This document shows positions 27,049 to 37,251 of a stretch of 64,000 nucleotides of DNA, piece after piece (the stretch's first letter is position 1; each line of letters opens with the position of its first letter). The DNA is taken from NCBI GenBank assembly GCA_944383545.1, contig CALWPY010000001.1, positions 327,899 to 391,898 on the forward strand, written 5' to 3'. The translations under genes and the position numbers were made by a program. Origin of the DNA: an uncultured Lachnospiraceae bacterium. Its GTDB lineage: Bacteria > Bacillota > Clostridia > Lachnospirales > Lachnospiraceae. Below the pieces are notes generated by a model that searched no databases, was not told the DNA's origin, and worked only from the letters and a program-made list of their open reading frames with translations.

Positions 27049-27071
27049 AAGTACTATTGGAGGGATTACCT

Positions 27072-28247
27072 GTGATATTGGAAGCGTTATTCAAAATTAT
27101 ATATGAAATAATAGATGACACAGTTGATGTCGATGAAATTGTTAAGAAAGAAGAGATAAAGGATGTTGATTTAACAGAATTGATACAGATAACAGATCAA
27201 CAAATTACTGAGTTTCTTAATGAAAAAATATCCGATAAAGAAAAAAATAATTTAGTATTTAAAGTGTTTCAAAAATTAAAAATAGATCAATCTATTGAAG
27301 AAATAACCGATGAAGTTGAAAATGAGGAAAGAGAACAAAGAAAAAAATTGGTTCTTGACTTATTTGATAAAATTGTAGAACCAGATGAAATCGAGATTAC
27401 GGATAACGATGTGTGTATTAAATACAATTTTGGTGCAAGTAGTAAATTGAAAAATAAGATTGATGAAATCAATAAATGGAATAGAGATAATGTTATAGAA
27501 ACCATATCAAGGGAATTAAAAGTACCAGTAGAAAATATAACATTAGTTGATAGTGTAAGTAGTTATATTGAATTTATTAGTAATTTTGATGAAAACAACT
27601 ATGTGTCAAGAGGACAGAAGAATTGTAAATTTAAGTTAGAACCATCTCTACATAGAATATATAATGATAGTTTTCAATTGCATTCTTCACAATACGAATC
27701 TGCATTTAAGCAACGTATACTATATTACGATGAAACTACAGAAAAAAAGAATGCTGAAGAATTGAGAGCATATGGGCAGCATTATGGCTTACCAACTAAT
27801 TATTTGGATTTTACGGAAGCACATTTGATTTCGTTACTTTTCGCGGTTGAAGATTTTGAATATACAGATAATCATTCCATTGTATACTTTGTTGATGCGT
27901 TATCGTATAATCGTGATAATGTTAAAGCAGAAAGGAAATTGGTAGACTTTTCTGATGATGAAATGAAGGCATCTTTAGAAAGAGAGTATTCAGATAAATC
28001 ATATTTTATAAGGGTTGGGAATTGCAACGAACGAATACATTTTCAAAAGGGATGTTTTTTAAGAGTTGAGCATAGAGATACACTTGATAGAATGTTTGAA
28101 AAGTATACAAAGATTGCAATAATTGATAAGGATTGTAAAGAAAATATTTTAAAAGAGTTATTTAAATTAGGTATAACTTTTGAAAACATTTATCCTGATA
28201 AGGATAACATGGTGAGAACAATAAAATTTATCAAAGAACATATGTAA
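27072..28247 (+). CDS. FRG-domain protein
   Basis: The N-terminal 150 residues are acidic and lysine-rich with no known fold visible. The FRG domain then runs from about SYIEFISNFDENNYVSRGQ, where arginine and glycine follow the aromatic pattern, through the LEPSLHR block, the AYGQHYGLPTNYLDFTEA core and LLFAVEDF. FRG proteins are scattered in defence islands and their biochemical activity is unknown to me. The start is GTG 27072, seven bases after GGAGGG; the frame before it overlaps this site. Base composition is clearly more AT-rich than the R-M genes, which suggests separate acquisition. It is spaced 12 bases from the DUF262 gene. Confidence 0.85.
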   Translation: MILEALFKIIYEIIDDTVDVDEIVKKEEIKDVDLTELIQITDQQITEFLNEKISDKEKNNLVFKVFQKLKIDQSIEEITDEVENEEREQRKKLVLDLFDKIVEPDEIEITDNDVCIKYNFGASSKLKNKIDEINKWNRDNVIETISRELKVPVENITLVDSVSSYIEFISNFDENNYVSRGQKNCKFKLEPSLHRIYNDSFQLHSSQYESAFKQRILYYDETTEKKNAEELRAYGQHYGLPTNYLDFTEAHLISLLFAVEDFEYTDNHSIVYFVDALSYNRDNVKAERKLVDFSDDEMKASLEREYSDKSYFIRVGNCNERIHFQKGCFLRVEHRDTLDRMFEKYTKIAIIDKDCKENILKELFKLGITFENIYPDKDNMVRTIKFIKEHM

Positions 28248-28259
28248 GGAGAGAACAAT

Positions 28260-29477
28260 ATGCAGTTACCATTAGATGTTGAATATACAAGACCTTTAAT
28301 ATCTATTCAGGATATGGTGAATTTTATAGATAAAGGTGAAAGATATTTAAAGAGGGCTAGCGAAGAATTAAATGAGGAGGAAGAATTGGAATTTTTGCAA
28401 GGTATTATTTTGAGTCCGGATTACCAGAGGGAATATCGTTCAAAGGCAAAAGAGGAAAGCTCAATAATTGAATCAATTATTGTTGGAATTCCAATTCCTG
28501 AAATTTTTCTTGTAAGAACAGGTAGCAACGGAATTCAGTTGAGGCATGTTATGGATGGACAACATAGGCTGACGGCTATATATAGATTTGTAAAGGATAA
28601 GTTTGCACTGACTGAACTTGAATTATTGAAAGAAAATGAAGATTTTAAAAATAAGAAATTTTCACAATTGAGTAAGGAAATTAAGTTTAGAATTCTAAGC
28701 AGTCATTTGTCAGTGCTTGAATTTGAAGCATTTTCCAATGATGATATGGAGATTGAACTTTTTAAAAGATATAATCGTAATACTAAGCCGTTGGAAAAAC
28801 ACGAAATATCGATGGCAACTTTTTATTCAAAAACAAGCTTATATATAACAAATTTCCTTAACCATAATATTGAAAACCAAGATAAGGAAATGTTGGCGAA
28901 AAAACTGATAAAAATATATAATGTTACCACTGACAGAAAGAACAAACAACGTAACCATCAGGAATTATGCATTATATTTAGCATTATTAATGATGGACCT
29001 AATGTTATGTATAAAGATGGTGTAGAAATAGCTGATAAATATTTGGAAAAACAAGCAAATGCATATAAAGATGGAGAAAATAGTGACCTTCAGAAGATTA
29101 AGAATACATTTAATAAGTTTAACATGTTTGTTATAAAATTGTCTGAATTTGTTGAGTATCCATTTTCGAGTGCAATATTTAAAGGAGAGGATAAGCGGTC
29201 CGTTAAATTTCATACAGGAGTATCAATGGTTTTGGCAACAATCTTTTACTATTTTGATATAGATATGAATAGTCCATTTTTGTTAGAAGAAGTACAGGAT
29301 ATAATGAGAAGTAGTCCGCTTGGGGATGAAACGTACAATGCATCAAGTACAAATATGCGAAATGTTATGAATTATTTATATATAAAAAATGAAGTATTTG
29401 ATAAGGAGTATAAATCGATGAAATATAAAGGAAATATTTCATCAGACATCATTGCGGTATTAAATAAGACTGAATGA
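28260..29477 (+). CDS. DUF262-domain protein (ParB/GmrS-like)
   Basis: The N-terminal half is a DUF262 domain: SPDYQREYRSKAKEESSIIES, IPIPEIFLV, the nucleotide-binding DGQHRLTAIYRF and ELFKRYNRNTKPLEKHEI. The fold is the ParB/sulfiredoxin-like NTPase seen in type IV restriction proteins (GmrS). The C-terminal half is helical, without the HNH (DUF1524) nuclease signature that GmrD-like partners carry. It follows the FRG gene by 12 bases with GGAGAG as ribosome site, and shares its AT-rich composition. Together they look like a two-gene module; the nuclease, if any, is not obvious. Confidence 0.88.
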   Translation: MQLPLDVEYTRPLISIQDMVNFIDKGERYLKRASEELNEEEELEFLQGIILSPDYQREYRSKAKEESSIIESIIVGIPIPEIFLVRTGSNGIQLRHVMDGQHRLTAIYRFVKDKFALTELELLKENEDFKNKKFSQLSKEIKFRILSSHLSVLEFEAFSNDDMEIELFKRYNRNTKPLEKHEISMATFYSKTSLYITNFLNHNIENQDKEMLAKKLIKIYNVTTDRKNKQRNHQELCIIFSIINDGPNVMYKDGVEIADKYLEKQANAYKDGENSDLQKIKNTFNKFNMFVIKLSEFVEYPFSSAIFKGEDKRSVKFHTGVSMVLATIFYYFDIDMNSPFLLEEVQDIMRSSPLGDETYNASSTNMRNVMNYLYIKNEVFDKEYKSMKYKGNISSDIIAVLNKTE

Positions 29478-30273: not shown

Positions 30274-30302
30274 TTGACATGAGTAACTATTGGTAGTATA
30301 TT
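30274..30302 (+). promoter_or_regulatory. Promoter of attenuator 1
   Basis: TTGACA (30274-30279) and TATATT (30297-30302) with exactly 17 bases between them form a near-consensus promoter. Transcription would start about 20 bases before the leader peptide ribosome site. The same arrangement precedes attenuator 2. Confidence 0.85.
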
Positions 30303-30332
30303 TATTACCAAAATTACAAGGAGAGCATGCAA

Positions 30333-30395
30333 ATGAATCAGAACTTACATTCAAGACGTTATATGTACATGTATTATAGACGTATTGCGTTATAA
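30333..30395 (+). CDS. Leader peptide 1, tyrosine-rich, 20 residues
   Basis: A 20-codon reading frame follows AAGGAGA at nine bases. The product contains NLHSRR, then Y-M-Y-M-Y-Y, then RRI and ends in leucine. Its twin at 36758 shares the frame length, NLHSRR, the alternating methionines and RRI, but has aspartate in place of tyrosine at three positions. Codons 10-15 are TAT ATG TAC ATG TAT TAT. Such a codon cluster in a short leader followed by a terminator is the hallmark of ribosome-controlled attenuation. The gene controlled is the tandem GNAT. An in-frame ATG two codons earlier is too close to the ribosome site. Confidence 0.8.
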   Translation: MNQNLHSRRYMYMYYRRIAL

Positions 30396-30541
30396 GCTTT
30401 GCAAGGTTAATGCATTGACTTATAGCCGGTAGGTCTATTAGTCTAGTGCATAAAACCAGAATGTGAGTGATGTGTTAATATATATTACATCGTAAATTGG
30501 AATTATCGCACTGGACAATGAATGTTTGGTGCGATTTTTTT
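30396..30541 (+). promoter_or_regulatory. Transcription attenuator 1 with terminator
   Basis: After the leader stop, segment 2 (30411-30425) pairs with segment 3 (30435-30450), TGCATTGACTTATAG with CTATTAGTCTAGTGCA. GAATGTGAG (30459-30467) can pair with CTTACATTC inside the leader (30344-30352, codons 5-7). The terminator is TCGCACTGGACA (30506-30517) with TGTTTGGTGCGA (30523-30534) and seven T residues. Segment 3 GTCTAGTGC can alternatively pair with the terminator arm GCACTGGAC, which would form an antiterminator. All these pairings recur in attenuator 2 with different sequence. Confidence 0.75.
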
Positions 30542-30560
30542 GCGTGGAAGAGTGCATGGA

Positions 30561-31529
30561 ATGAGTGACTTAATTGAATTGAAATTGGTAACAGAAAAGG
30601 AAGCAGAATCTCTGCACAGACTACAGGTAGAAGCGTTTATGCCATTATATGAAAAATATCAAGATGATGATACAAGTCCGGCAAAAGAAAGCCTGAAAAG
30701 AGTAACAGAGAAGATTATTGAGGAAAATTCAGATTTTTACTTCATTGTGTTTCGTGGAGAAAAAGTTGGGGGTGTGAGAGTCAGATGGCATCAAGGCAAA
30801 AAGGTATATGAAAATGTTAATTGGATATCTCCTATTTTCATAATTCCCAAATTTCAAAATAAAGGGATTGCGAGCACGGTGATAGAACAATTATTTGATA
30901 TTTATCCAGATACAATAGAATGGCGTTTAGATACGATAAAGCAGGAAACAGGCAATTGCCATTTATACGAAAAATGCGGCTTTGTTAGAGTTGGCGAGGA
31001 TATAGTAGTAAATGAAAAGATGACATTGGTTGATTATGTAAAAAGCTGTATTAGAGTACGAAGATTTGAAGAAGAGGATGCAGATGAAGTTAGCAAGCTG
31101 ATTGTAAGGAATTTCTTAGAGGTCAATAGCAAGGATTATGGAATTGCAGTTATGGAGAAACTTGCAAAGGTTTATGATTCAGGGAAAGTTCTAAATATTG
31201 CCAACTATGCACATATGTATGTCTTTGAATGGAATGGTAAGATAGTTGGTACGGGATCGATTTCTAGTTTCTGGGGAAGTAAGACAGAAAGCATTTTGCT
31301 GACTATTTTTGTTTTGCCAGAATTTCATGGAAAAGGGATCGGAAGAAAAATCATAAATACATTGGAACAGGATGAGTTTTTTGTAAGAGCAACTCGTATT
31401 GAGATACCTGCATCTATTACAGCAACAGAATTTTACAGAAAATTTGGATATGATTATAAGAATGGTGTTAAGGAGTTGGATGAAGAATATCATTATAGAT
31501 TGGAGAAATTTAAGGAGGCAGGACAATGA
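30561..31529 (+). CDS. Tandem GNAT acetyltransferase under leader control
   Basis: The 322-residue protein contains two GNAT domains. The first (1-155) has IIPKFQNKGIASTVIEQLF as acetyl-CoA loop and the aromatic NCHLYEKCGFVRV end. The second (165-310) has VLPEFHGKGIGRKIINTL and ATEFYRKFGYDY. Acetyl transfer to a small molecule or peptide is expected. Its place directly behind an attenuator suggests a resistance or detoxification role; acetyltransferases are known to inactivate aminoacyl-nucleotide inhibitors, but that is only an analogy here. I start at ATG 30561 (GGAAGAG upstream); the earlier frame lies in the terminator. It overlaps the next gene by ATGA. Confidence 0.82.
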   Translation: MSDLIELKLVTEKEAESLHRLQVEAFMPLYEKYQDDDTSPAKESLKRVTEKIIEENSDFYFIVFRGEKVGGVRVRWHQGKKVYENVNWISPIFIIPKFQNKGIASTVIEQLFDIYPDTIEWRLDTIKQETGNCHLYEKCGFVRVGEDIVVNEKMTLVDYVKSCIRVRRFEEEDADEVSKLIVRNFLEVNSKDYGIAVMEKLAKVYDSGKVLNIANYAHMYVFEWNGKIVGTGSISSFWGSKTESILLTIFVLPEFHGKGIGRKIINTLEQDEFFVRATRIEIPASITATEFYRKFGYDYKNGVKELDEEYHYRLEKFKEAGQ

Positions 31530-31933
31530 AACATTTTTTACATTTGAATGATTTTTCAAAACAGGAAATTATTCATATATTTGAATTGGCGGATAAATTA
31601 AAAGCAAATAACGAAGAATGTGATTGGCTGAAGCGGAAAACGATTGTGTTATTTTTTCCGGAAAGTAGCATTAGAACGAGAGCTTCTTTTGAAAAGGGAA
31701 TAAAAATGTTGGGTGGAGATACAATTTTGTTTCCGCCGGAAACGCTTGACAAGAAAGAAGATATTAAGGATGTGATAGGATATCTTGAAAATTGGGCGGA
31801 TATGGTTATTGTCCGTCACAAGGATTTGTCGTTGATAGAGTATATGGCGGAGCATTCGCATATTCCAATTATAAATGCGATGACAGCCGTAAATCATCCA
31901 TGCGAGATATTAACAGATGTACTGGTATACTAA
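31526..31933 (+). pseudogene. Ornithine-carbamoyltransferase-like gene, 3' truncated
   Basis: The first 135 residues of a carbamoyltransferase are readable: KHFLHLNDFSKQEIIHIFELADKLK, the carbamoyl-phosphate loop as ESSIRTRASFEKG (normally S-T-R-T-R) and HPCEILTD corresponding to HPxQxLxD. The frame stops a few codons later at the left end of the IS3 element, leaving under half of the normal 310-330 residues; no continuation is found beyond the element. Start overlaps the tandem GNAT stop (ATGA), so both were leader-controlled. The T-to-I change in the loop may mark decay or a different substrate. Confidence 0.85.
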
Positions 31934-31993
31934 ATTGGTAACACCTCGTACGGATAATATGATAAAATATTATTATTCAAGGAGGGCATGCAA

Positions 31994-32233
31994 ATGTCAG
32001 TATATTACAACGAAGACTTCAAAATGGAAGTTGTGAAAGCTTATATGACCGGAGAAAAATCCACAGCAGCTATATCTGCTGAATATAATATTTCAAAAAC
32101 CACTGTTCGGGAATGGGCTAAGAAATACAGTGAAGAATGCCAATATAAAAATACCACTACTAATAAATCAGAAAATGATACTGCGCAGGAAATAAGAAGA
32201 TTAAATCAACTGTTAAAGGAAAAAGAAAAGTAG
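31994..32233 (+). pseudogene. IS3 orfA, ended early by a TAG codon
   Basis: The product is a helix-turn-helix DNA-binding protein: FKMEVVKAYMTGEKSTAAIS and EYNISKTTVREWAKKY, then a leucine-zipper-like EIRRLNQLLKEKEK. A TAG at 32231-32233 interrupts the frame; the next codons, IEFLKKAAAFFAKEID, are the normal end of IS3 orfA and run to a TAG at 32282. A slippery run of A residues (32248-32254) lies after this early stop, so production of the OrfAB fusion is probably blocked in this copy. ATG 31994 is set by GGAGGG seven bases upstream. Confidence 0.8.
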
Positions 32234-32283
32234 ATTGAGTTCTTAAAAAAAGCAGCGGCATTCTTCGCAAAGGAAATCGATTA

Positions 32284-33135
32284 GTGGTATATCGGTTTAT
32301 TGATGAAAACAGGGAATATTTTGGGTTAAGATGGCTATGCCGACATTTCGGTATTAGTCTTAATTGTTATTATAATTATCTTGAAGATAAAAAGGATGAC
32401 TATCATACGCAGCGTGAAGCCATTTACGAAAGGATTAAGTACATTTATTATAACAATAACAGAACTGTCGGACACAGAGCAATGCGTATTTTCTTAACAA
32501 GATATGGTATTCATCTTAGCAAAACTACAATTCATAAATATATGAACAAAGACCTTAATTTAGCTGCTGTTATTATGCGTAAGAATCCGGGTTATAAGGC
32601 TTGTAAAAAACACAGGATATTTGATAACTTACTTAAACAAAACTTCACTGTTAATGAAAAAAACAAAGTATGGTGTACTGATTTTACATATATGCGGCAA
32701 TCTAATGGACGCTTCAGATACAACTGTACGATTATTGATTTATACGACAGAGCCATTATTGCCTCTGTAAATGGAGATAATATAAATACAGAATCGGCAA
32801 TAGCTGCACTAACAAAGGCAATAGATACACAGAAACATCCTAAAGGTTTAATATTGCATTCTGACCAGGGAGTACAATTTGCCTCATATGATTTTGTTAA
32901 TTTCTGCAAAAACCATGATATTACGCAAAGTATGAGTAAAGCAGGCTGTCCATATGATAATGCACCAATGGAACGATACTATAATACATTTAAGAATTGC
33001 TTTTATTACAGATTTACATTTGAAAGTGCCGAAATGCTTGACGAAATGACAAAGTCATATGTCAATTGGTACAATTATGTAAGACCTCATTCTTACAACA
33101 AATATATGACACCAATGGAGGCACGCTTTAGTTAA
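32284..33135 (+). CDS. IS3 orfB, DDE transposase
   Basis: The 283-residue protein has the HTH_21 region (FGLRWLCRHFGISLNCYYNYL, GHRAMRIFL) and the rve integrase core. The DDE triad is visible: D in VWCTDFTYMRQ, D in ILHSDQGVQFAS, and E in APMERYYNTFKNCFYY. The ending YVNWYNYVRPHSYNKYMTPMEARFS is typical. The frame is -1 relative to orfA and normally is expressed by frameshifting. The catalytic part is intact, but see orfA for the early stop. Confidence 0.93.
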   Translation: MVYRFIDENREYFGLRWLCRHFGISLNCYYNYLEDKKDDYHTQREAIYERIKYIYYNNNRTVGHRAMRIFLTRYGIHLSKTTIHKYMNKDLNLAAVIMRKNPGYKACKKHRIFDNLLKQNFTVNEKNKVWCTDFTYMRQSNGRFRYNCTIIDLYDRAIIASVNGDNINTESAIAALTKAIDTQKHPKGLILHSDQGVQFASYDFVNFCKNHDITQSMSKAGCPYDNAPMERYYNTFKNCFYYRFTFESAEMLDEMTKSYVNWYNYVRPHSYNKYMTPMEARFS

Positions 33136-33179
33136 AATATTTCCGACCAAAGTGTTACCAAAAAGGTTGACTAGTACAC

Positions 33180-33416
33180 ATGGAAGTGATTCATAATATG
33201 GAACTGGAGGAAATGATTATTACGGTATATTCTGATGCTGATTTCTCCGATTGCCAATGTAAAATCGTGATTATGTATTACGAAAATGTTGCGACAATAT
33301 GCTACGACAAAATATCACTTTCTAAAAAAGAAGTGAAACAGCTTTGCTCTAAATGCTTTATTAAGTGGACGCATGAAATACATATTTGTGAACCGGAATG
33401 GTTCCTATACAATTAA
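33180..33416 (+). CDS. Small unknown protein
   Basis: This frame of 78 residues begins 19 bases after the IS right end. An internal ATG at 33198 could be the real start. The sequence, with five cysteines and many acidic residues (DADFSDCQCKIVIMYYENVATICYD, SKKEVKQLCSKCFIKW), is not recognised. It resembles the small acidic proteins of immunity-gene rows. A missing 5' part cut off by the IS is also possible. Confidence 0.45.
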   Translation: MEVIHNMELEEMIITVYSDADFSDCQCKIVIMYYENVATICYDKISLSKKEVKQLCSKCFIKWTHEIHICEPEWFLYN

Positions 33417-33487
33417 TTGGCTATGATGATGGCTGTGTATTTGGCGGGCATAATTTCAAGCATACTTAAGTATTCGGAGGCACCACA

Positions 33488-33820
33488 ATGATATATGACT
33501 TAGATATAATTGATTTTTCCAGACATGACAGATTAAAAAGAACTATTTATATGACCATCTATGATACTATAATAGAGGATATTGATCCACAGAAACATAA
33601 GCAATATCTGGATAATAAAATTGAATTGTATGTAAATTACATAATCGATAGAGAAATGTCTAAATACTTTTCGATAAGCGATGAGAAAGAAAAGAAATAT
33701 AAATACATAATTCAACTTATTTTAGACTTTGTTCCTGAACAGCAGTATTTGGACTATATCAAGGTTATAGATTCTCAGGTGCTCGAATATACATCTGGAC
33801 GTGTTCGAGTAACATGGTAG
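33488..33820 (+). CDS. Unknown small protein, possible immunity protein
   Basis: A GGAGG site seven bases before the ATG supports this 110-residue protein. It is helical and charged, with FSRHDRLKRTIYMTIYDTII near the start and YKYIIQLILDFVPEQQYLDYI near the end. I do not recognise the family. It is the second of a row of small plus-strand genes without obvious catalytic motifs, as in orphan immunity gene arrays. Confidence 0.55.
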   Translation: MIYDLDIIDFSRHDRLKRTIYMTIYDTIIEDIDPQKHKQYLDNKIELYVNYIIDREMSKYFSISDEKEKKYKYIIQLILDFVPEQQYLDYIKVIDSQVLEYTSGRVRVTW

Positions 33821-33859
33821 AATGAATATAAAATTAGTTGGACTTGAGGTGAAATAAAT

Positions 33860-34855
33860 ATGTCTGATGTAAATGACAGATATGTAATAGACCAAATGGG
33901 AATAGAAGATGAAAAGCTGGTGCTTATCATTGTTGATCCGATGGAATGGGGGTATTGTGTGCGGGAAAGTCATGCCCATATATTAAAGGATAAAATCAGT
34001 GATTATTTGCAATTTATAGACAGCGGACAAGCTGCAGAGTATCATAAAGATGAAGAATATAACAGAATTGTAATTCGTGTCGCTGCGAAATATTCTTACA
34101 GCAGGTATGGCTTGGATTTTCTTGAAAGATGCCAAAAATGGATTCAGGAAAACGGGAAGTTGTGTGAGCTTGAATGGACGCATTTATCAAAGGAAAATGG
34201 GGAAAAAACGGAGTTTCAGGACGGCTTTTCAGATGATTACATATATGAAGCGGACAAGATTTATCCGCGTATCAAAAAGAATTGGTCAAAAACTCCCGCT
34301 GAGACAGTCACGCTTATGGCTGCGAACAACAATTTTAATAATCAGAGTGGCGAAATACAGGAATACAATAATATCCCCATGTTTCGGATTTATGACAGCT
34401 ATATAATTACACTGATACAGGATATGGGCAGCACTTATATGTATCTGACCTATGACAATCTTCCGGAAGATACGTCCGCACAATTGCTTGAGAGCAAAGC
34501 GTTTGAAAACCTGTGCCGGGATATAACGTATCGCATGGTGGAATCAAAGGAAGCCGGAGTGTATGGACTGGTGGCTGGCGGAGATTTTGAAGCGGAGGCC
34601 TTGTGTCTGCCGGGTATATGGGAAGATTGCAGCGAGACATTGCAGGATGACTTGCTGATTGCAGTTCCGACGAAGGATATGGTGCTGTTTACAAGAGCAG
34701 GCAATAAAAAATCCATACGGAAAATGATAAAACAGGCGCATAAAATATTTGAAGAGTATCGAAAGGAAAGTCCGTTCCTGATTTTCAGCCGCGATGTTTT
34801 CTATTATAACAAAAGTACAAAAGAGATTGAAATCAATAAGAAATATCATGTTTGA
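33860..34855 (+). CDS. Two-domain protein: DUF6572-like plus DUF1444-like
   Basis: Residues 1-95 (VIDQMGIEDEKLVLIIVDPMEWG..., KISDYLQFIDSGQ) resemble the DUF6572 immunity-type domain. From about residue 140 to the end the pattern ETVTLMAANNNF, GLVAGGDFEAEALCLPGIW, DDLLIAVPTKDMVLFT and SRDVFYYNK resembles DUF1444/YtpQ-type proteins. The combination is unusual. No catalytic residues are evident; protection against a toxin is a guess from the first domain and from context. Domain names are by eye and moderate in certainty. GAGGTG lies before the ATG. Confidence 0.5.
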   Translation: MSDVNDRYVIDQMGIEDEKLVLIIVDPMEWGYCVRESHAHILKDKISDYLQFIDSGQAAEYHKDEEYNRIVIRVAAKYSYSRYGLDFLERCQKWIQENGKLCELEWTHLSKENGEKTEFQDGFSDDYIYEADKIYPRIKKNWSKTPAETVTLMAANNNFNNQSGEIQEYNNIPMFRIYDSYIITLIQDMGSTYMYLTYDNLPEDTSAQLLESKAFENLCRDITYRMVESKEAGVYGLVAGGDFEAEALCLPGIWEDCSETLQDDLLIAVPTKDMVLFTRAGNKKSIRKMIKQAHKIFEEYRKESPFLIFSRDVFYYNKSTKEIEINKKYHV

Positions 34856-34871
34856 AGACAAGGAGTATGGT

Positions 34872-35408
34872 ATGCAAGAGACAATCGAAACCATAATGAG
34901 TAAAGTTAATAGGAAGAAGGCCCAGAGCCTCTGTAAGAAGATTCTGAAAAAATGTAGTTTTAAATCAAAAAATGATTTGGCAAATTTGTCTGATTTGGCT
35001 ACATGGTTATACATCTATGAGTATTATGATGAAGCAATTGCGGTGTGTGATTTGCTTTGGAATTTGGAGTTTACAGGAAATTATAGTATCTGATGGTATG
35101 CAGATTATACTGCGTGTTTAAAAGCAAGAATTTTGAGAGAAAAAAATATCACTGATGGTCGAAAAGAATTATTAAAACGGGTAAACGGGCATAGACATCC
35201 GGAACTGTATATTAATGGGGTTGCCTGGTACCGTATTACCGTTAATAAAAACATTCAAAGCGATGACGATTATAGCCCTAATCGAATTAATGACTGATGG
35301 AGAATGGAAAAGCTGGAGCATACAATAATGTATAGAGAGGCTGGCGGTCATCCGATTCCGGATGAAGAGTTTGAGGCAGATATTATTGTGATAAATACCG
35401 TATTTTAG
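34872..35408 (+). pseudogene. Broken gene with two in-frame TGA codons (DUF6707-like)
   Basis: One frame of 178 codons runs from ATG 34872 to TAG 35406, interrupted by TGA at 35091-35093 and at 35295-35297. Both TGA codons are followed directly by TGG. The readable parts (KVNRKKAQSLCKKILKKC, LATWLYIYEYYDEAIAVCDLLW, then ADYTACLKARILREKN, GHRHPELYINGVAWYRI and ADIIVINTVF) form a coherent single protein resembling the tetratricopeptide-like DUF6707 immunity family. TGG-to-TGA change would explain each stop. I treat it as decayed. Confidence 0.65.
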
Positions 35409-35425
35409 CAGGAGGGGATTATATA

Positions 35426-36013
35426 GTGAAAAACATCAGAACATACAAACCGGAGAAATACGCCGGACCAGATTACGAAGAGGTTGAGCCGAACATTTAT
35501 AAGACTCATTATACGATGTCTGAGTCTGAGAATTCTTTATCCTTAAAGGGTATTTCTGATGAAGATAAAGCTGAAATGTTAAGAAACATGAATGGCTGGA
35601 AACAGGGTGAAGGAAACTGTGAAGAAAATTTATATGTCCTGATATATGAAGGTAAAAAATACTATAGAGAAATGGATGAGAATGAGTCTGATTTTGATGT
35701 GATTTATGAAAATATGAATCAGGAATTGCAGGAAGTTTATGTCACATCCATTGTATTTGAGCCGGAGCCTGACTATGGCGAAAACGCTCCATCGGAGGCT
35801 CAAATTTCCCAGTATCCTTTGGAGGATATACTTGACGAGTTTTATTGCGAAGTATTTGATTTTTATGAAAAAGAGAATGAGTCTGATGCAAATAATTCTT
35901 ATGTGGAATTTGCAAGTGATGATATTGAATATATCAGAAAGCTTCTTTCGATTATCGGAAAGCATGTATATAACAAAGAAGATGGAGAGTATATAAAATT
36001 AGTGATTGAGTAG
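35426..36013 (+). CDS. Unknown acidic protein, possible immunity protein
   Basis: A GTG start lies 12 bases after GGAGGGG. The 195-residue protein is strongly acidic (many Glu, Asp and Tyr), with TSIVFEPEPDYGENAPSEAQ and YPLEDILDEFYCEVFDFYE. No family is recognised and no membrane segment or signal is visible. High acidity and the neighbouring small genes fit immunity proteins that bind basic toxins. The next gene begins two bases after its stop. Confidence 0.55.
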   Translation: MKNIRTYKPEKYAGPDYEEVEPNIYKTHYTMSESENSLSLKGISDEDKAEMLRNMNGWKQGEGNCEENLYVLIYEGKKYYREMDENESDFDVIYENMNQELQEVYVTSIVFEPEPDYGENAPSEAQISQYPLEDILDEFYCEVFDFYEKENESDANNSYVEFASDDIEYIRKLLSIIGKHVYNKEDGEYIKLVIE

Positions 36014-36015
36014 AT

Positions 36016-36690
36016 ATGGATAGTGAAGTTATAAATTTATTATATGAAAAAGTTGATATATTTAAATCATGGGCTAAGCAGAATTACCCGGAAAAAACGG
36101 AAGATGATGATAACGGAGAATGGGAAATAGGTGGGCCGCTTGATGATATGGTTGATGCAGTACTTATGGTATTTAAAAATATTAAATGTGACAATGCCAC
36201 AGAAAAGCTGATATCAGATATTTTATATGTTATTGCACGTGATAACGAGTGCGAAATAGTCATATCAGAGCTTCTTAGATATGAGGAGTGGTTTCTGCTT
36301 CTCTGCAGAGAATGTCTGGATTATGAATATACAAATGCCAAGTGGCAGTTTGCTAAATATTTGGCAGACTATTCAAAACTTGAAGGTGACAGCAAAGAAT
36401 TGATTTTCCGATTTGTCGAATCAGATGATGAATATACATCAAGAATGGCATTAAACACATTAGGAAAATTATATCCAGATAAGGCAGAAGAATATGCTGT
36501 CCGATTTTGGGAACGAAACAAATATGAAGAAGGCTCATACGAGCAGGAATATCAGAAGATAATGGTGCTATGGGTGTTGAAGGATATTAATTCACCAAAG
36601 CTGAATCATTATCTGGAACTGGCAGAAAAATCACCATACAAATATTTAAGGGAAAACGCGGATGAAATCCGAGGAATAATAAATTTGTGA
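36016..36690 (+). CDS. HEAT-repeat-like helical protein
   Basis: The 224-residue protein looks like a helical-repeat (HEAT/ARM) protein: paired helices such as ATEKLISDILYVIARDNECEI, WFLLLCRECLDYEYTNAKWQFAKYL, TSRMALNTLGKLYPDKAEEYA and IMVLWVLKDINSPKLNHYLELA. Similar short repeat proteins act as immunity proteins in polymorphic toxin systems. It follows the previous acidic protein by two bases, so both are cotranslated, and is followed after 11 bases by the promoter of attenuator 2. Confidence 0.6.
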   Translation: MDSEVINLLYEKVDIFKSWAKQNYPEKTEDDDNGEWEIGGPLDDMVDAVLMVFKNIKCDNATEKLISDILYVIARDNECEIVISELLRYEEWFLLLCRECLDYEYTNAKWQFAKYLADYSKLEGDSKELIFRFVESDDEYTSRMALNTLGKLYPDKAEEYAVRFWERNKYEEGSYEQEYQKIMVLWVLKDINSPKLNHYLELAEKSPYKYLRENADEIRGIINL

Positions 36691-36701
36691 TAACTTTCTT
36701 A

Positions 36702-36730
36702 TTGACACAATCTCCATTTAATGATAACAT
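36702..36730 (+). promoter_or_regulatory. Promoter of attenuator 2
   Basis: TTGACA (36702-36707) and TAACAT (36725-36730) with 17 bases between. The arrangement relative to the leader peptide start matches promoter 1. Confidence 0.8.
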
Positions 36731-36757
36731 ATTAAAAATTTTAAGGAGAAAGCATAA

Positions 36758-36820
36758 ATGAAACACAACTTACATTCAAGACGAGATATGGACATGGATT
36801 TAAGACGTATCAGACTTTAA
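36758..36820 (+). CDS. Leader peptide 2, aspartate-rich, 20 residues
   Basis: A 20-codon frame follows AAGGAGAA. The product has NLHSRR, then D-M-D-M-D-L, then RRI and ends R-L. It matches leader 1 at 13 of 20 residues. All three tyrosines at alternate positions 10, 12 and 14 of leader 1 are here aspartate (GAT, GAC, GAT). The coordinated swap with conserved flanks suggests the residue in these positions is what the leader senses. The gene downstream is decayed. Confidence 0.8.
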   Translation: MKHNLHSRRDMDMDLRRIRL

Positions 36821-36987
36821 GCTATGCAAAGTTAATGCACAGCTTAAGTCGATAGGTCTTTTGTGTCTGTGCATTAAACGAGAATGTAAGCTGTTTTATG
36901 ATATTATAACTATTATATTACTTCTTGTTATAACCAATCCTTAGGATTAACCGCACCAGACACATAAAATGTCCGGTGCGATTTTTT
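36821..36987 (+). promoter_or_regulatory. Transcription attenuator 2 with terminator
   Basis: AATGCACAG (36834-36842) pairs with CTGTGCATT (36867-36875). GAATGTAAG (36892-36900) pairs perfectly with CTTACATTC within the leader (36769-36777). The terminator is CGCACCAGAC (36952-36961) with GTCCGGTGCG (36971-36980) and a run of six T. GTGTCTGTGC (36862-36871) can alternatively pair with the terminator arm GCACCAGACAC, with one bulge, forming an antiterminator. An extra palindrome AATCC-TTA-GGATT lies at 36936-36948. The set of pairings mirrors attenuator 1. Confidence 0.75.
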
Positions 36988-36996
36988 ATGTTTGGA

Positions 36997-37251
36997 AGGA
37001 GGAATTCATATAATATTAGAAGAATTTGACGAATCAAAAACGGCAGTGATTAATCCATGGGATATAGTTAAGCCTGTAGATGAGATTCCGGAGGTTTTGG
37101 TAGGGTGTTATGCCCACACTACATTTGAAAGAATGGTTGACTTACTTGGTGCTGTTAAAATTGCTGAATCAAGCTCCGCAAATGGAATAAGGAAAAGGAC
37201 AAAGTTTCAATAATTGCTTTGGAATTAGCAAGGCAAATATCAGACGCATGA
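36997..37251 (+). pseudogene. Nucleoside phosphorylase remnant
   Basis: Just after the attenuator and a GGAGGA site, LEEFDESKTAVINPWDIV, then VLVGCYAHTTFERMVDLLGA and IAESSSANG, resemble the N-terminus of the nucleoside phosphorylases of Clostridia. After about 60 residues the match ends; another frame supplies DKVSIIALELARQISDA and a stop at 37251, which could be the original C-terminus after an internal deletion. No ATG start exists at the expected place. The gene is therefore non-functional. Confidence 0.55.

Follow-up and report, generated by a model that had tools for sequence, protein, structure and literature searches.

Two similar leader/terminator elements in a Lachnospiraceae genome belong to an apparently undescribed family of predicted leader-peptide attenuators found ahead of detoxification-like genes

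The stretch of DNA considered here, hereafter called the window, comprises 64,000 nucleotides (nt) of the genome of an uncultured Lachnospiraceae bacterium (GenBank assembly GCA_944383545.1, contig CALWPY010000001.1, positions 327,899 to 391,898) and carries two similar elements, designated wA and wB, in each of which a leader of 20 codons lies between a promoter-like site and a terminator. An initial annotation of the window had proposed that they represent twin attenuators, one with tyrosine and the other with aspartate codons in its leader peptide. Both elements are indeed present, and they are the only copies found in the window as well as in the whole 2.26 Mb assembly, where the two further matches returned by each model search proved to be the same hairpins read on the opposite strand. 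Their parts, in window coordinates, are as follows.

30274 to 30302, + strand: wA promoter-like site, TTGACA-17 nt-TATATT (consensus matches only, 11 of 12)
30333 to 30395, + strand: wA leader open reading frame (ORF), MNQNLHSRRYMYMYYRRIAL and stop codon, with an AAGGAG ribosome-binding site at about 30318 to 30323
30360 to 30377, + strand: wA sensor codons Tyr-Met-Tyr-Met-Tyr-Tyr (sensor role predicted)
30343 to 30468, + strand: wA long hairpin (folding)
30343 to 30352 with 30459 to 30468, + strand: outer pairing of the wA long hairpin
30362 to 30368 with 30446 to 30452, + strand: sensor codons with antiterminator strand in the wA long hairpin
30376 to 30396 with 30419 to 30438, + strand: wA helix P1 (last leader codons)
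30410 to 30451, + strand: wA alternative hairpin P2, about 30410 to 30417 with 30444 to 30451, which excludes P1 (read from the sequence; pairing supported family-wide)
30437 to 30451, + strand: wA antiterminator strand, complementary to the 5' arm of the terminator
30505 to 30541, + strand: wA intrinsic terminator and T run (hairpin 30505 to 30535; consensus scan and folding)
30561 to 31529, + strand: tandem GNAT acetyltransferase gene under wA (GNATa and GNATd domains)
36702 to 36730, + strand: wB promoter-like site, TTGACA-17 nt-TAACAT (consensus matches only, 10 of 12)
36758 to 36820, + strand: wB leader ORF, MKHNLHSRRDMDMDLRRIRL and stop codon, with an AAGGAGA ribosome-binding site at about 36743 to 36749
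36785 to 36802, + strand: wB sensor codons Asp-Met-Asp-Met-Asp-Leu
36769 to 36890, + strand: wB long hairpin (folding)
36769 to 36777 with 36882 to 36890, + strand: outer pairing of the wB long hairpin
36787 to 36798 with 36860 to 36871, + strand: sensor codons with antiterminator strand in the wB long hairpin
36803 to 36823 with 36841 to 36859, + strand: wB helix P1
36835 to 36875, + strand: wB alternative hairpin P2, ATGCACAG with CTGTGCAT, which excludes P1 (read from the sequence; pairing supported family-wide)
36863 to 36872, + strand: wB antiterminator strand, complementary to the terminator 5' arm from 36953
36952 to 36987, + strand: wB terminator hairpin and T run (RNAfold hairpin 36952 to 36980)
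37010 to 37192, + strand: nucleoside phosphorylase remnant behind wB (roughly the first quarter of the gene, lacking a normal start codon)

The two elements share a layout in which a single long hairpin takes up most of the leader ORF as its 5' arm. In both leaders, GAATGTRAG is the partner of the LHS codons and a GGTAGGTCT or GATAGGTCT segment that of the RRI codons, and the middle codons pair with a strand that can alternatively bind the terminator. Both RNAs fold far better than dinucleotide-shuffled sequences (z -6.7 for wA and -6.8 for wB; 0 of 200 shuffles in either case). The plus-strand terminator of wB was missed by the consensus scanner, its hairpin and T run being taken from RNAfold, and promoter-like matches, examined in wA and wB only, were no commoner than in shuffles (1 found vs 2.5 expected; 3 vs 2.7).

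Is the likeness of wA and wB a chance resemblance? It is not, because related copies occur in 20 of 397 genomes of the same bacterial family, the window's own included, as found with a covariance model (R1) built from 8 sequences, and in 20 contigs retrieved with a 19-base pattern. A BLAST search with wB gave matches in 15 of 150 genomes of the family, again counting the window's own, many of the matches being short. Nineteen of the pattern contigs are titled Lachnospiraceae and one [Clostridium] fimetarium; the latter is also among the family genomes (L046 and G299), and one of the former is identical to a contig of G114 (L041), which is likewise a genome of the window's family. All 20 were chosen by an exact match inside the P1 arm, so that this arm is biased towards constancy. 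A second model (R2, 37 sequences) detected elements in 6 of 392 genomes of an order sample, 1 of 291 of a class-wide sample (the window's own alone) and, within the genera of G281 and G697, 2 of 23 and 18 of 79 genomes, respectively (three weak ones from the G697 genus were then dropped). Relatives of G220 yielded 8 of 294, all eight being already in the set. The window's genus and that of G220 comprise one genome each; in samples exceeding 40 genomes the scoring used stricter filters, which may have let weak copies escape. The minus-strand shadows cast by the hairpin were dropped before counting, as were L101 to L103, which are weak (E 3e-4 to 9e-3) and lack the anchor motif at the match. The resulting collection holds 54 elements, all from the window's own bacterial family; in 51 of them, by set criteria, a terminator follows a leader that opens with a start codon (L083, L044 and L100, which fail these criteria, were left out of the leader statistics), and these 51 fall into 20 clusters at 75% identity.

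Searches with the wB element returned no records from a plasmid collection and a single 42-base match, of no use, from a phage collection; two patterns gave no match each in viral contigs. Rfam, T-box RNAs included, had no match at gathering score in the window or in 16 fetched loci, and no recognisable description of such leaders was found in the literature, which was searched by titles and abstracts with most subscription journals outside its scope. This is in line with the initial annotation, which knew of no account of such leaders, and the family of leader attenuators before detoxification-like genes is real and apparently undescribed. Elsewhere in the same genome (contigs C1, C5 and C9 of G000) five T-box RNAs score above the cut-off; the organism therefore possesses the common RNA device for sensing uncharged tRNA as well.

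The architecture of the leader, i.e. an ORF combined with alternative pairings, is well supported. In the model alignment of 37 sequences, 92.6% of the cells pair and double changes occur in 14 of 31 pairs, with 84 double-changed cells vs 21 in shuffles; having been fitted to the model, this alignment leans towards covariation. An alignment-free test on the 20 clusters gave the same picture: in P1, in P2, in the helix between antiterminator strand and terminator arm, and in that between the leader start and its 3' partner, the matched segments paired better than permuted ones (0 of 1000 in each of the four). The antiterminator and terminator pairings are mutually exclusive and, across the 20 clusters, conserved by co-variation. 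Outcomes that would have spoken against an attenuator family, namely an absence of further copies, swaps at random and stems that do not co-vary, were not encountered: the copies are many, their stems co-vary, and Tyr and Met account for 42 and 35 of the 120 sensor codons.

The sensor was defined as the six codons before the RRI-like end, which yields the 120 codons just mentioned for the 20 clusters. Base-shuffled means are 9.1 for Tyr and 3.1 for Met, with 0 of 2000 shuffles reaching the observed values, and Tyr accounts for only 12 of the 153 codons that precede the sensor. In the largest cluster Tyr is encoded by either TAT or TAC, three positions hold Met throughout, and His, Asn, Val or Ile appears at some sensor positions. 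Other readings include HMSIHH, HMSTYY, HMHHC, NMPMCD and YAYIIYY, among them a His-rich subgroup. The three Asp codons of wB differ from the Tyr codons of wA by their first base alone, a difference that, by our own estimate and for this single case, would be hard to reach by random drift. A change from Tyr to Asp forced by base pairing was considered and rejected, as the pairing energies of the alternatives do not demand Asp: with the antiterminator strand (kcal/mol), the wB sensor gives -10.2 for Asp, -8.6 for Tyr, -15.2 for His and -4.1 for Asn, and that of wA -9.4 for Tyr, -13.3 for Asp, -10.4 for His and -9.0 for Asn. Sensors are richer in Tyr where the cluster includes GNATa or the methyltransferase (one-sided p 0.004 for 20 clusters that are not fully independent). 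A conserved protein of 126 to 128 amino acids is encoded behind leaders of the HMS/HMH/HKT subgroup (L048, L055, L059 and L060); the copy scanned (L048) had no Pfam or NCBIfam match.

What do these leaders precede? Genes were counted with our own profiles (at least 60 bits) within sequence of up to 3.5 kb, i.e. by proximity and not by co-transcription, the scan of the wA GNAT beginning one codon after its start, at 30564. Behind 35 of 54 elements lies a GNAT that belongs to one of four subfamilies, and 16 of 20 clusters include one; a methyltransferase follows 14 of the 54 and a nucleoside phosphorylase 9. The parts recur in various combinations: GNATa fused to GNATd, GNATa or GNATd with the phosphorylase, GNATd with GNATc, and the methyltransferase with GNATa. 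One further GNAT, behind L055, was seen by Pfam alone. Pfam supports GNAT, PNP_UDP_1, HIT, Peptidase_S66, phosphodiesterase, AP_endonuc_2, methyltransferase and other assignments, with no match for the kinase-like first gene of L042, and neither a synthetase nor an amino-acid biosynthesis enzyme was found among the downstream genes scanned. For the peptidase behind L057, the E value is 6e-88 against an MccF-like protein of solved structure and about 1e-36 against MccF proper. A V[ED]ME motif and an invariant Asp are conserved in the eight phosphorylases that were aligned; the nearest solved structure by sequence is a uridine phosphorylase, and the best match of a structural model (pLDDT 80) is methylthioadenosine phosphorylase, followed closely by purine and uridine phosphorylases. 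Methylthioadenosine phosphorylase acts on a 5'-modified nucleoside. The model of the tandem GNAT (pLDDT 73, with a poor C-terminal end) matches many GNATs. The initial annotation had inferred that each of the two elements turns on a detoxifying enzyme; a tandem GNAT gene does lie behind wA, but the phosphorylase gene of wB cannot be switched on today, because only its first 61 to 66 codons align, of about 253 to 266, and they lack a normal start. L076, whose sole GNAT is 2.1 kb distant, and L080 seem to have lost their close gene as well. The former has an altered terminator and the latter a drifted sensor (YIYVVYY); both, with no close GNAT gene, may be switches decaying after gene loss.

By sequence, the downstream set resembles immunity to aminoacyl-nucleotide inhibitors of tRNA charging. 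In published work, RimL and MccE accept many aminoacyl adenylates as substrates for acetylation (PMC3817062), microcin C, once processed, is inactivated by HIT hydrolases (PMC7157772), and the immunity set against microcin C comprises MccE (a GNAT), MccF (an S66 peptidase) and MccH (a HIT protein) (PMC9239234). Nucleoside sulfamates act as poisons of synthetases (PMC7613620; PMC12262901). Adducts of adenosine sulfamate arise on these enzymes, those with Tyr, Asn and Asp among others (PMC7613620), and dealanylascamycin, a Streptomyces product, hits aspartyl-tRNA synthetase and others (PMC12262901); the adducts were shown in malaria parasites or human cells, and antibacterial action of the compounds is mentioned without reference to Lachnospiraceae (PMC7613620; PMC12262901).

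How the leader RNA might respond to translation was modelled by folding every element with its leader masked by a ribosome up to successive codons and counting the expected antiterminator pairs at equilibrium. The mean over the 20 clusters was 3.4 pairs with no ribosome, 8.5 with the sensor in the A site and 2.9 with the ribosome at the last codons or the stop codon. This three-state pattern appeared in 12 of 20 clusters (25 of 51 elements) vs 13 of 80 controls with shuffled codon order (Fisher p 2e-4), and wB switches cleanly in the model (0.0, 8.6 and 0.1, respectively). The swapped codons, at which the initial annotation had imagined a stalled ribosome, are thereby predicted to be the waiting site that favours the antiterminator.

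It is very probable that the family represents a ribosome-controlled transcription switch, for which three states are predicted. In the absence of translation, the leader ORF, as the 5' arm of the long hairpin, would hide the antiterminator strand, so that the terminator forms and the genes stay off. A ribosome that has reached the leader end would cover the RRI(C)L codons and break P1, whereupon P2 would capture the antiterminator strand, with the same outcome. Only a ribosome waiting on the sensor codons would open the leader arm while P1 still blocks P2; the freed antiterminator strand could then pair with the terminator 5' arm and the genes would be read. The likeliest cause of waiting would be a shortage of charged tRNA for the sensor codons, the residue sensed being Tyr, and perhaps Met, in most members and His or Asp in a few. 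Such a shortage might arise when a toxic compound of the aminoacyl-nucleoside type blocks a tRNA synthetase, and the induced GNAT acetyltransferases, nucleoside phosphorylase and other enzymes would inactivate the compound. For this account as a whole, from attenuator to inactivating enzymes, the balance tips only slightly in favour. That each leader senses the lack of one charged tRNA, as the initial annotation held, is in particular something that we infer from the codon bias and the nature of the downstream enzymes.

Several results weigh against this account. Met enrichment almost equals that of Tyr, which leaves the sensed residue unsettled, and a few members have neither Tyr nor Met in the sensor (HKTTST, RVQRVT). 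The Asp leader first described is a single case, Asp as a repeated residue occurring in wB alone among the 51 leaders, and the gene behind it is a remnant. The sensor codons, the one leader segment without a clear dependence on pairing, may still be shaped by it in part. That the Tyr-rich stretch is merely the complement of the antiterminator strand was rejected, permuted segments pairing equally well or better in 138 of 1000 cases for the 20 clusters, yet across all 51 elements the sensor pairing beats the permuted one in all but 11 of 1000. The three-state pattern is absent in 8 of the 20 clusters, including that of wA, represented by L070, and wA gives 10.7 to 11.0 antiterminator pairs at every ribosome position. 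When wA is folded before its terminator has been added, the antiterminator strand is least paired (0.31 to 0.34) when the first sensor Tyr or Met occupies the A site, vs 0.69 with no ribosome and 0.83 with the ribosome at the end; this pre-terminator behaviour lends weaker support, being found in only 8 of 20 clusters (21 of 51 elements) and also in 24 chimeric and 2 shuffled controls out of 100 each. As to the genes, the HIT and MccF-like genes each occur once, and the tandem GNAT has SpeG and PaiA as fold matches besides RimL and MccE, which stand among the first 14. Finally, in one genus it is a methyltransferase that follows the element; of these 14 loci only 4 show a GNAT, and in at least 7 of the remaining 10 the second gene is a different one, which leaves the methyltransferase as the constant gene of the group.

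Methyltransferases and GNATs are both common resistance folds, as would be expected if a ribosome-binding antibiotic stalled translation on the leader peptide and the genes modified the drug or its target, and leader attenuators of resistance genes are well known. Such a drug-dependent arrest of the nascent chain, of the kind found in erm, cat or ABC-F leaders, is nevertheless rather unlikely here, as the sensor accepts chemically unlike swaps (YMYMYY, DMDMDL, HMSIHH, YAYIIYY, RVQRVT) in a way that a conserved arrest motif would not, and the more constant C-terminal end of the leader varies together with its RNA partner.

The existence of members that lack Tyr might suggest a general sensor of slow translation, in which read-through would follow from a stall anywhere within the leader's first two thirds and the residues, biased by effects of RNA or start codon, would matter little. 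Read-through is in fact predicted from about codon 2 to the sensor end in several members (e.g. L067, L041 and wB). The codon bias, however, is concentrated in the sensor stretch, where Tyr lies far above shuffles, and the synonymous TAT/TAC changes and the weak dependence on pairing likewise speak for the residues, so that we give this explanation a small chance. A further reading starts from the tRNAs for NAY codons (Tyr, His, Asn and Asp), which share queuosine at the wobble base; the sensor would then report, for instance, their modification state or their cleavage by a colicin E5-like nuclease. These residues make up 57 of the 120 sensor codons (20 clusters), and swaps of Tyr to Asp, His or Asn alter the first codon base only, but Tyr alone contributes 42 of the 57 and the downstream enzymes resemble modifiers of small molecules rather than tRNA repair enzymes, which makes this reading very improbable.

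Returning to a switch operated by tRNA charging, one of the closest known systems is the attenuator of the auxiliary, indolmycin-resistant tryptophanyl-tRNA synthetase gene of Streptomyces coelicolor, reportedly described by Vecchione and Sello in 2010. Both would use leader-peptide attenuation to control a gene that defeats a synthetase inhibitor, but the Streptomyces case concerns one synthetase gene and Trp codons, whereas here one leader family stands before many genes, with several sensor residues and with modifying enzymes in place of a resistant synthetase. With attenuators of the trp/his type the family shares a short ORF with repeated control codons, mutually exclusive hairpins and an intrinsic terminator; it differs in showing no biosynthetic genes downstream among those scanned and in that the hairpin hiding the antiterminator strand uses the leader itself as its 5' arm. 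Like the erm, msrD and tylosin-controlled yxjB leaders, it places a leader ORF and a switch before resistance-like enzymes; unlike them, it has no conserved arrest peptide, and the sensor residues are swapped while the RNA architecture stays. The GNAT, S66 peptidase and HIT classes of the microcin C immunity set (PMC9239234) all occur downstream of some members, as matched by sequence, with the differences that the HIT and MccF-like genes are single cases and that a nucleoside phosphorylase is added.

It is conceivable, as a tentative extension that we regard as doubtful, that the exchangeable middle codons act as a plug-in sensor reporting a poisoned tRNA synthetase, mostly that for Tyr but also those for His or Asp, and that they drive an unrecognised resistance repertoire against natural aminoacyl-nucleoside toxins in Lachnospiraceae, so that the leaders would be a record of the synthetases attacked in the gut. 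To our knowledge, natural synthetase inhibitors in gut bacteria are hardly known. If the account is true, one conserved RNA scaffold would have been re-aimed by exchanging a handful of codons, the element would mark genes that disarm inhibitors of tRNA charging and so offer a route to such genes and their toxins in gut bacteria, and the family would provide a clean test bed for how attenuators change specificity.

Two further observations concern the surroundings of wA. Behind its GNAT gene, at window positions 31526 to 33135, an ornithine/aspartate carbamoyltransferase gene is shortened to its OTCace_N part and adjoins an insertion element with an rve integrase gene, which we take to be IS3-like. 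At window positions 27057 to 29477 lie two adjacent genes with an FRG domain and a GmrSD-like N-terminal domain, folds that are often met in phage defence.

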